Shown here one piece after another: positions 10,177-13,548 of a DNA stretch of 64,000 nucleotides (positions within the stretch are counted from its first letter, which is position 1; every line of letters begins with the position of its first letter). The stretch comes from Mucilaginibacter sabulilitoris. GTDB lineage: Bacteria > Bacteroidota > Bacteroidia > Sphingobacteriales > Sphingobacteriaceae. The stretch covers positions 2,790,001 through 2,854,000 of the forward strand of contig NZ_CP139558.1 of assembly GCF_034262375.1 (NCBI RefSeq), given 5' to 3'. Under the pieces are notes generated by a model that was given only the letters and a program-made list of their open reading frames with translations, was not told where the DNA came from and made no database searches. The translations under genes and the position numbers were made by a program.

Positions 10177-11805
10177 ATGAAAAAGATTACTATAACATTA
10201 GGTTGTTGCATGCTCCTGCTTGGCGCTGCCACCTCCTGTAAAAAATCTGTTCTGGATGAAAAAGCTATTGCTCAATTATCATCAGATGTGAATTTTAAAA
10301 CGAAGGTGGGGTTTGATAACGCCATAACCGGACTGATTTTTGCTGCCCGTGATGAGTTTAACGGCGAAGATTTGGGCAGATGGTATGATATGGACTTAGG
10401 TACAGACATAGGGACTACCGGTCAGGAACAAACAACCAACTTCCGTAATTATACTACATTTCTTGTGCCTTCTTCGGCTGCTGCCAGCAGCTATTGGAAC
10501 TGGGCTTATACCCAAATGATACTGCGGGCCAATACCATTATTGAATATGCCGAAAAACCGGAGTCGGCTGGCATTTTTGCAAATGATGCAGAAAAAAATT
10601 CCTACATAGCCGAAGCTAAATTTTTCAGGGCCTATACCTATAATACGCTCGCCAACTTATATGGCGGAGCTGTTATTGTTGATCGTACCTACCAGTCTCC
10701 GAAAACTGATTTTACGAGGTCTACCCGTCAGGCAACTTATGATTTTGCACGCGCTGATGCGGAGTTTGCGTCGCAGTGGTTACCAGTTACGGTTACTCCG
10801 GCCCGTGAAGGTCATATTGTAAAGGGCGCAGCAGATCATCTGTTAACAGAAATTTATCTCTCCTTACAGCAATATGATAAGGCCATTGAAAGTGCCTCTA
10901 AAGTAATTGATGGCGGTACGTATCATTTAATGACCAATCGTTTTGGCGTGAACGCTAATTTACCGGGAGATGTATATTCGGATCTGTTTATTGAAGGGAA
11001 CCAGAACCGTAGTGCTGGCAATATGGAATCTATTTATGTTTGGGAATTTGAAAACCTGGTAACCGGCGGCGGCGGCTCTACCGGTAGAAACAATACCATC
11101 CGCGGATGGGTACCGGCTTTGTGGAATTTAAAAGACCCGGCCGGGGCCAGCGGTATGAGCATTGTTGATAGTTTAGGGCGCGGCGTAGCTTATGTGCGGC
11201 CAACCACTTATTTCCTGTATAATTTGTGGAAGGATAATGCCCAAAATGATATCAGGAATTCTAAATATAATATTCGCCGTACATTGTATTATAATAATCC
11301 GGCTTCTACTTATTTTGGCAAACCCGTCGAGCCGCGGACTACCCAGGAAGATACGATGCGTAATGTGTACCCATACCTGAGAAAGTTGGAGGGGAAACCA
11401 TGGCAGGGGGATAATACCTCAGGAGGTACCGGTAAAGACTTTATCGTTTACAGACTGGCAGAAACCTACCTGCTCCGGGCCGAGGCTTATATGAAAAAGG
11501 GCGATAACACAAAAGCTGCGGCAGATATCAACGCGGTCAGGAACAGATCAAACGCCAAATCAATTTCTCCGTCTGATGTTACAATGGATTATATTTTAGA
11601 TGAAAGAGCAAGGGAACTGATCACAGAGGAGAGAAGAAGGTTAACTTTGAGCCGGGTTGGAAAACTGGTGGAAAGAACTAAAAAGTATCAAACCAGGGCA
11701 GATGTGGTTTCCACCATTCAAAACTTTCATGAATTATATCCAATTCCGCAATCAGCAATTGATGCAAATTTTAGCGCTAAACTGGAGCAGAACCCTGGTT
11801 ATTGA
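10177..11805 (+). CDS. SusD-family outer-membrane lipoprotein (RagB/SusD)
   Basis: A 542-residue surface glycan-binding lipoprotein that works with the SusC protein. A signal peptide ends in a lipobox before Cys21 (GAATSCKKS). The body has the SusD TPR-like helices (AEAKFFRAYTYNTLANLYG; VYRLAETYLLRAEAYMKKGD; DERARELITEERRR). It ends in the family's conserved C-terminus (LEQNPGY then TGA). The stop codon at 11803-11805 abuts the group II intron, and the last codons serve as the intron's predicted binding site, yet the protein is intact. Confidence 0.95.
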   Translation: MKKITITLGCCMLLLGAATSCKKSVLDEKAIAQLSSDVNFKTKVGFDNAITGLIFAARDEFNGEDLGRWYDMDLGTDIGTTGQEQTTNFRNYTTFLVPSSAAASSYWNWAYTQMILRANTIIEYAEKPESAGIFANDAEKNSYIAEAKFFRAYTYNTLANLYGGAVIVDRTYQSPKTDFTRSTRQATYDFARADAEFASQWLPVTVTPAREGHIVKGAADHLLTEIYLSLQQYDKAIESASKVIDGGTYHLMTNRFGVNANLPGDVYSDLFIEGNQNRSAGNMESIYVWEFENLVTGGGGSTGRNNTIRGWVPALWNLKDPAGASGMSIVDSLGRGVAYVRPTTYFLYNLWKDNAQNDIRNSKYNIRRTLYYNNPASTYFGKPVEPRTTQEDTMRNVYPYLRKLEGKPWQGDNTSGGTGKDFIVYRLAETYLLRAEAYMKKGDNTKAAADINAVRNRSNAKSISPSDVTMDYILDERARELITEERRRLTLSRVGKLVERTKKYQTRADVVSTIQNFHELYPIPQSAIDANFSAKLEQNPGY

Positions 11806-12482
11806 GTGTCGCGAGCAAATCAGAGGTTCGCAGAACCACTGATTGCGAGCTGTATAAAAGATGAGGGACGGCCCCTCGGTATCGGCTTACAGGAGCGGGT
11901 ACCAAACCGCCGCTAAGCTGCTTTGGTTAAGTGCCTTGGTAGTGAGCGTTAGCGGAAAAGGCATCATTAAAGGTGTCAGGTAAGTGTTAAGAAGGTGAAC
12001 GCAAGTGAACCACTGATGAGGCATCGAAAGGATTAGACGATGTCAAAACCGGGTAACAGTAGCGACCCAGGGACAAGCAAGGCGGGAACCTGTTTACTGG
12101 CTTTGCGGCATCCGGTGTATAAGTGGCACGAGCTTAACACAGGCTTTTGTATGGAACGCGAGAACCTGTCGCCATCATGTTAAGGGAAAACCTCAAGTCG
12201 GTGCACCGGCAAGAGGGAAAGTACCGATGGATGGCACGGGGGCGGAACATCCCGTATTAGTAATGAAGTTCCTGTAATGGGAATGGAGCGAAGGGGATGT
12301 ATTAACAGGCTTTCTATATCCGGCGCAAAACTGAGCGATCAGGAGGTAGCAAAGGATGAAAGCAAAACACGCGGAGTCAAGGACAGACCCCGGTGTATTA
12401 GTTAATAAGAGCCGTGTGATGGGAGACTATCAAGCACGGTTCTATGAGGGACTTGGGGTGAAATTCCCCAGGTCTACTCGAC
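11806..12482 (+). mobile_element. Group II intron, ORF-less (677 nt), inserted after the susD stop
   Basis: A structured non-coding stretch with every hallmark of a bacterial group II intron, resembling the chloroplast-like class. It begins GTGTCGCG, has a 34-nt domain V (12409-12442), and a domain VI hairpin with a bulged A at 12476, 7 nt from the 3' end, and ends CTACTCGAC. Predicted EBS1 TTAGTAA (12257-12263, in a hairpin loop closed by GGAAC/GTTCC) pairs with exon bases TTATTGA (11799-11805). Predicted EBS2 CCAGGG (12067-12072) pairs perfectly with exon CCCTGG (11793-11798). No reverse transcriptase frame is present, so mobility would need a protein supplied in trans. Splicing would leave 22 bases between susD and the next gene. 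The pairings were read by eye, not folded by program. Confidence 0.9.
12409..12442 (+). ncRNA. Group II intron domain V
   Basis: The catalytic hairpin of the intron. Lower stem GAGCCGTG pairs with CACGGTTC, an upper stem GATGG pairs with CTATC, and a GAGA tetraloop (GNRA type) closes it. The AGC catalytic triad is at 12410-12412 and a two-base bulge lies on the 3' side. All parts needed for activity appear intact by inspection. Confidence 0.88.
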
Positions 12483-12504
12483 AAGAATTAAAGTGAATAT
12501 AGAT

Positions 12505-13548
12505 ATGCCGAGAAAAATAATAATGCTATTGCCTTTATGCATGCTTTTGGCGACCGCCACAGGTTTAAAGGCACAAGAGCAATGGAAGGTTGTGAAGCAG
12601 GAGCTGGTTTTTGATAACCCTCCGTTTAAACAATGCCATGCCTCTACCATTACCGAAATAAAAACAGGGGAGCTTTTGCTCGCCTGTTTTGGTGGTTCGC
12701 AGGAGGGTAAAAAGGATGTGAGTATATGGTTCACTAAACTGAACAAAGAAGACAAAGGTAAACCCGAAATTATAGCCGATGGTGTGCAGCATGATAGCGT
12801 CCGTTTTGCATCCTGGAATCCCGTACTGTTTAAAACAAAAAAAGGTAAGGTGTTTTTATTTTATAAAGTAGGCCCTAATCCGAGGGAGTGGTGGGGAATG
12901 TTCAAAACATCTGACGATGAAGGCAAAACCTGGTCGCAGGCAACCCGGCTTCCAGAAGGAATTTTAGGGCCGATAAAAAACAAGCCGATTCAGTTGGCCA
13001 ACGGTACTATTTTGGCGCCTTCCAGTGTCGAAGAACAAGACGGCCGTTGGAAGGTTCATTTAGAAAAGTCGACCGATATGGGCAAAACATGGGAGTTTAT
13101 CCCTGTTGATACCACATCGTTTGACGTTATTCAGCCCAGTATTTTGTCATATGGCAACAAAAAGTTGCAAATTTTATGCAGGAGCAGACAGGGTAATGTG
13201 ATCCAGGCCTGGTCGGAAGATAATGGCGATACCTGGGGTAAGCTGTCTAAAACCGAATTATTGAACCCCAATTCCGGTACAGATGCAGTAACCCTGAAGG
13301 ATGGCAAACAACTGATTGTTTACAATCCTGATGTGCCCGGTAAAGACTGGTTTAATGGAAGAGCAAAGCTGCGGGTAGCCTGTTCTGCGGATGGATTGAT
13401 CTGGAAAGATATTGCTGTTTTGGAAAACGGAACCAAAGAAGAATACAGCTATCCGGCTATTATTCAAACAAAAGATGGTCTTATTCACATCACCTATACT
13501 TTCGACCGTAAAAACATCAAGCACGTGGTTTTACAGGAAGGGAAATAA
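12505..13548 (+). CDS. BNR-repeat sialidase-like exported protein
   Basis: A 347-residue beta-propeller of the BNR_2/exo-alpha-sialidase-like group. The ATG at 12505 is chosen over the in-frame GTG at 12493 because it starts directly at a signal peptide (MPRKIIMLLPLCMLLATATG). Three Asp-box repeats of form SxDxGxTW are visible at residues 136-143, 189-196 and 237-244. The classical N-terminal RIP motif of GH33 sialidases is not seen, so true sialidase activity is unsure; it may act on another acidic sugar. After intron splicing it would lie 22 bases behind susD, as an operon member. Confidence 0.82.
   Translation: MPRKIIMLLPLCMLLATATGLKAQEQWKVVKQELVFDNPPFKQCHASTITEIKTGELLLACFGGSQEGKKDVSIWFTKLNKEDKGKPEIIADGVQHDSVRFASWNPVLFKTKKGKVFLFYKVGPNPREWWGMFKTSDDEGKTWSQATRLPEGILGPIKNKPIQLANGTILAPSSVEEQDGRWKVHLEKSTDMGKTWEFIPVDTTSFDVIQPSILSYGNKKLQILCRSRQGNVIQAWSEDNGDTWGKLSKTELLNPNSGTDAVTLKDGKQLIVYNPDVPGKDWFNGRAKLRVACSADGLIWKDIAVLENGTKEEYSYPAIIQTKDGLIHITYTFDRKNIKHVVLQEGK

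Follow-up and report, generated by a model that had tools for sequence, protein, structure and literature searches.

A group II intron lineage lying within susD stop codons, whose 5' end appears to rebuild the stop

How could an intron that lies at the very end of a susD gene spread through that gene family and leave each protein intact? This question is raised by a locus in the window analyzed here, a stretch of 64,000 nucleotides from the genome of Mucilaginibacter sabulilitoris, which is a single contig of 7.55 Mb; all features given below by their position in the window lie on the plus strand. Read with the intron present, the host gene is an open reading frame at 10177-11805, whose product ends in LEQNPGY and matches the Pfam families PF07980 (E=3e-34) and PF14322, so that its first identification as susD is upheld. 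Its stop codon, TGA, is made of exon T 11803 together with G11804 and A11805 of the intron. Immediately upstream lies a motif common to the occupied sites, CAGAACCCTGGTTATT (11788-11803), which comprises the codons for Q-N-P-G-Y and the first T of the stop and has a PNY variant at copy L007. Downstream, the AA at 12483-12484 represents the remainder of an ancestral TAA stop, as judged from the AA or AG 3' flanks and from empty orthologues, and a gene for a BNR_2 repeat protein (12505-13548; ORF and Pfam) follows about 20 nt past the intron.

The element itself is an ORF-less group II intron of 679 nt (11804-12482), with bounds derived from orthologous empty sites and from the AA/AG flank common to its copies. 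A sequence-only reading of the window had recognized a group II intron, and the RNA is recognized by the covariance models: Rfam RF01999 (group-II-D1D4-2) matches the domain I core at 11863-11981 with 109.5 bits (gathering 36), and RF00029 matches domains V and VI at 12407-12482 with 61 bits (gathering 40). Domain V (12408-12443) is delimited by RF00029 and the fold, and domain VI (12446-12479) by the fold, with a bulged branch-point A at 12476, 7 nt before the 3' end; together, the two domains fold far more stably than shuffled sequence (z = -7.1). The intron terminates in GAC, in agreement with the AY found at group II 3' boundaries. Alignment with relatives further reveals a hairpin of variable length that separates the 5' end from the domain I core (11815-11846), and, in domain IV, the vestige of the start of a reverse transcriptase (RT) reading frame (12341-12358), where the AGGAGG and the ATG start codon of the lost gene are retained and the RT body is absent. 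Overall, the predicted ribozyme and the RT of its relatives place the element among group II introns.

Group II introns begin almost universally with GUGYG. The window copy begins with GAGUG (11804-11808), which does not bar it from the group, since exceptions to GUGYG are known (PMC4424553). In an alignment that includes relatives from S. multivorum and Bacillus, those with other targets begin with GUGUGCCACGAA, and susD members begin with GAGUGUCACGAA, GAGCGCCAUGAA and similar sequences of equal length. Upstream of RT genes, the recognizable starts read GAGYG in 10/10 members of the susD clade and GUGYG in 33/33 of the others, with an eleventh susD locus, which starts with AG, counted apart. 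The latter (L078:3438, Sphingobacteriales 50-39) is the sole member with such a start, AGGCG, which yields TAG; at its 3' boundary GA may remain, that is, a split TGA stop.

These starts bear on whether the second intron base changed from U to A, or whether a GA was inserted at the 5' terminus of an intron that splices two nucleotides upstream of a retained GUGYG-like motif, as C.te.I1 and fungal rRNA introns do. Splicing of that kind is documented (review PMC4424553), and the ORF-less copies do carry GUGUC two bases in. However, GAGUGUCACGAA aligns with the canonical GUGUGCCACGAA without gaps, RT-bearing members read GAGCG and have no GUGYG two bases in, and the bulged branch A is kept here, while the fungal introns that splice upstream have lost their branch-site motifs (PMC4424553). 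We consider upstream splicing unlikely, and a substitution at the second base is the reading that we retain.

We then examined how the intron could recognize its target, by means of a scan in which intron segments were compared with their own exons over all alignment columns and exon offsets, outgroups included. The best column pairs with exon positions -6 to -1 (GNTAYT); in the window it corresponds to AGUAGC at 12058-12063, located in the loop of a hairpin (12049-12071) supported by folds, and it is assigned as EBS1. The same column pairs with the targets of outgroups, namely GAUGGU with ACCATY in S. multivorum and AGUCGU with ATGAYT in a Bacillus relative. The base facing the third position of the Gly codon is U where the target mostly has a purine; where the target has a pyrimidine, the intron base is either G or A. 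This covariation, at exon -5, gives pairing at 25 of 26 sites (permutation p ~2e-5; median p 0.005 with one site for each of 13 lineages), L075 being the unpaired one. Opposite the third position of the Tyr codon, most introns carry G, which accepts both Tyr codons, and two introns that sit at TAT only carry A.

The sequence-only reading had proposed that both EBS1 and EBS2 pair with the susD end, at 12257-12263 and 12067-12072, respectively. Covariation between EBS1 and its exon is indeed found, at 12058-12063 instead; the loop at 12257-12263 is of the coordination type and essentially the same in aligned relatives with other targets. The segment proposed as EBS2 coincides in part with the 3' strand of the stem in the EBS1 hairpin, and the alignment-wide pairing scan gave no outstanding column for EBS2. 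A delta-delta' pairing beside the loop first read as EBS1 was considered and dropped after the column scan, and a search by eye identified no EBS3. As six EBS1 pairs alone cannot explain the specificity for susD, the remaining specificity presumably comes from the RT.

Regarding the distribution of the intron, the source genome holds seven copies, six of them identical over 677 nt and the seventh (L003) differing by one base, and a SusD C-terminus, N-P-G-Y or N-P-N-Y, precedes all seven. Two further relatives in this genome, RT-bearing, 3.8 kb long and 73% identical, are also found at susD ends, so that 9 of approximately 92 SusD genes are occupied. Across 150 genomes of the genus, all relatives with a recognizable 5' end lie at an N-P/S-(G/N)-Y stop, and a pattern made of the 5' region plus one T gave 12 matches in 400 genomes of the family, 12/12 at susD and including two genomes of another genus. 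Every intact relative found elsewhere, in further Sphingobacteriaceae and in one genome each of Muricauda, Chitinophagales and Sphingobacteriales, occupies the same place in susD. Thus, the earlier expectation that other copies would sit at susD stops, and not at unrelated sites, was borne out throughout, and, with 7/7 copies of the source genome and all intact relatives examined at susD stop codons, the placement is not due to chance. The lineage is rare; a loosened 5'-end pattern retrieved only G121 among 395 genomes of the phylum, although it is strict enough to miss even copies in the window's own genome.

Some loci depart from the intact form. L044 (G028) is a probable relic of approximately 97 nt at a susD stop, in which domains V-VI are fused to the 5' end, and L045 (G030) is another probable relic at a susD stop, with a decayed 5' end, GAACG; TGA is kept in both. 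L012 and L031 (G116, on a single contig) and L011 (G127) are ORF-less copies in genomes where no susD-clade RT was found; on contig 1 of G116, a different intron-type RT is present in eight copies, all with the same score and 33% identical to the query. At L237 and L241 (G671, contig 7), the first part of the intron is duplicated around an N, a pattern suggestive of an assembly join and not of two insertions.

The RT of the RT-bearing relatives contains the Pfam domains RVT_1 and GIIM, and HNH is absent. Across the 84,980 species genomes scanned, relatives of at least 58% identity, which come from Mucilaginibacter, Pedobacter, Muricauda, Chitinophagales and Sphingobacteriales, are all at susD among those with 5' flank sequence, and relatives of about 50% identity or less are at other sites. 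The RT tree groups the 11 susD rows in a single clade (SH-aLRT 100) with no non-susD row inside, and the susD intron lineage is, judged by its RT sequences, monophyletic. As the clade spans several families, the lineage is either old or has spread sideways. Within it, the two RT-bearing copies of the source genome, L040:3372-7167 and L041:3455-7250, are twintrons, 99.8% identical to each other over 3.8 kb, in which another group II intron, carrying an RT of its own, splits the susD-intron RT; the RT at L073 (Mucilaginibacter) exactly matches that of a genus-mate genome, G063.

Outside the susD clade, a related lineage in Bacillota interrupts other RT genes at the codons of their catalytic motif, RYADD (GAYGAY-T|; L080, L081, L082, L085, L087, L088, L090, L091, L093, L094, L096, L098, L100 and L101), with an EBS1 that matches ATGAYT in the one case aligned. 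By these sequences, it is another lineage apparently aimed at a conserved protein motif. Further relatives (L104, L149, L151, L138, L146, L086 and L097) follow the conserved motifs GNCYDN/GNCYGN, ADD or TDD, and a TraE-like sequence, in genes that we take to be transposase or conjugation genes.

The distribution and the RT also weigh on a rival account, in which the copies spread among susD genes by recombination and not by retrohoming, and are either relics that do not splice or a 3' UTR element domesticated to stabilize or regulate the susD operon mRNA. The position of the intron between susD and the next gene, a stop that is kept without splicing, and the existence of relics such as the one in G028 would all agree with it. 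Nevertheless, the similarity between copies ends at the intron ends, while the flanking susD sequences differ, and the intact RT frames, the RT clade, the target covariation and the near-identical copies fit recent retrohoming; a relic or 3' UTR element is accordingly an improbable account, and we continue with a homing intron.

The exact insertion point follows from the flanks. T 11803 and AA 12483-12484 are the two parts of an ancestral TAA that the intron splits; the intron does not sit exactly after the stop codon, as it had been placed at first. The 3' flank is AA in the ORF-less copies, the exceptions being two genomes that each have a single copy with AG, and likewise AA in RT-bearing copies, so that the joined flanks read TAT-TAA or TAT-TAG. 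At the L006 locus, three intron-free congeners read CAACAAAATCCAGGCTATTAATTTCAATAATGATATC, or close to it, which is the predicted empty site, in almost complete base-by-base agreement with the joined flanks; of the intron-free orthologues at the L003 locus, most have TAA and two have TGA; at three loci, the empty orthologues mostly have TAA. From the joined flanks and the empty orthologues it follows that the element starts with GA and measures 679 nt, and not the 677 nt first given. The boundary cannot shift, because the last base of the insert is C, and the stops used are TAA or TAG, because the 3' exon must begin with A. Regarding the QNPGY ends of the source genome, 8 are occupied, 12 are empty with TAA and 3 are empty with TGA, as counted with a pattern that skips TAG stops and sites with G as its last base. 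An insertion directly after a TGA stop and followed by AA, which would keep GUGUC as the 5' end, looks canonical in the window alone (TGA|GUGUC...GAC|AA) and in the ORF-less copies, where GUGUC is present, but it is already contradicted by the empty orthologues, which lack GA and read TAA and then the same flank, it would need TGA at all occupied stops in spite of the TAA that prevails at unoccupied ones, some 3' flanks begin with AG, and the RT-bearing members have GCGCC and not GUGYG past the TGA, so that we give it almost no credence.

With the intron inside the stop codon, exon T and intron GA form an in-frame TGA, and a full SusD protein is therefore expected even without splicing. The relics still retain this TGA. 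The sequence-only reading had envisaged an element that spreads through susD ends and leaves each protein intact; that core idea is supported, whereas the mechanism differs in detail, as insertion is inside the stop and it is the GA of the intron itself that rebuilds TGA. This regeneration of the stop suggests that the GA start may have been selected for sparing the protein when splicing fails to occur, and the lineage appears to have exchanged the near-universal 5' GU for part of a stop codon. Overall, we consider it probable that near-universal 5' splice-site bases have re-evolved as part of a host stop, in what would be a fail-safe invasion of a paralogous family that does not depend on splicing, with a guide that matches codon degeneracy.

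Taken as a whole, the best explanation is a monophyletic lineage that homes to susD stops, regenerates the stop with GA, is guided by EBS1 and is copied by its RT, and we give it a probability of about 0.9. With the site, the lineage, the 5' end, the EBS1 pairing and the single clade established as above, we infer splicing, mobility and action in trans from the sequences. The homing site would be ...CAR-AAY-CCN-GGN-TAY-T|AR, within the susD stop codon. Intron RNA and RT would recognize the susD end together, with EBS1 of domain I pairing with the last six exon bases and the RT assumed to recognize the upstream codons. The RNA would then reverse-splice between T and AR, and the endonuclease-lacking RT would copy the inserted RNA. 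Unspliced mRNA, with its stop of T plus GA, would still encode full-length SusD; removal of the intron would bring back the original stop codon as well as the former distance to the next gene. Having lost its RT gene, the 679-nt copy in the window is probably mobilized in trans. Group II introns that lack the endonuclease prime on replication forks (PMC4424553). In the source genome, 9/9 occupied susD genes are co-directional with replication; no strand preference beyond the susD baseline could be demonstrated in this genome, where 75/92 susD genes are also co-directional (p=0.14).

Such a lineage would exploit the host's own large multigene family, in which a conserved C-terminal motif offers many equivalent homing sites. 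It raises the questions of how much weight the second intron base carries in branching and splicing, and of how a ribozyme guide adapts to codon degeneracy. Moreover, a natural intron that inserts at susD ends is a candidate tool, susD being a family with a central role in glycan use in Bacteroidota. No description of susD-targeting group II introns was found in the literature searched.

Bacterial group II introns are mostly reported from outside conserved protein genes. RmInt1 of Sinorhizobium meliloti targets an insertion sequence, and introns of its type share with the susD lineage an RT/maturase without HNH endonuclease; unlike RmInt1, the susD lineage is directed at a gene family of the host, susD, and its introns start with GAGYG. 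The closest precedent in the literature searched is the groEL intron of Azotobacter vinelandii (A.v.I1), reportedly described by Ferat et al. 2003 and Michel et al. 2007. A.v.I1 interrupts a termination codon and is said to be part of a lineage marked by a large insertion at the 5' end (PMC4465626). The two have in common an insertion within the termination codon of a conserved gene (here T|AA or T|AG), and the 5' insertion described for the lineage of A.v.I1 recalls the variable hairpin that precedes the domain I core in the susD family; the two families may be related. A.v.I1 occupies one essential gene, whereas the susD intron has a multigene family of about 92 targets. The introns of Thermosynechococcus elongatus reportedly (PMC2882425) also include ORF-less copies beside RT-bearing relatives in one genome, as well as nested introns; there, the ORF-less copies are mobilized in trans, as we suppose for the susD copies, but the sites of the latter, unlike those in T. 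elongatus, are the stop codons of one gene family. Finally, C.te.I1, the fungal rRNA introns (PMC4424553) and the susD introns all depart from the GUGYG 5' boundary: the former splice upstream of a GUGYG that is kept, whereas in the susD introns the terminal GUGYG itself is altered and the length is unchanged.
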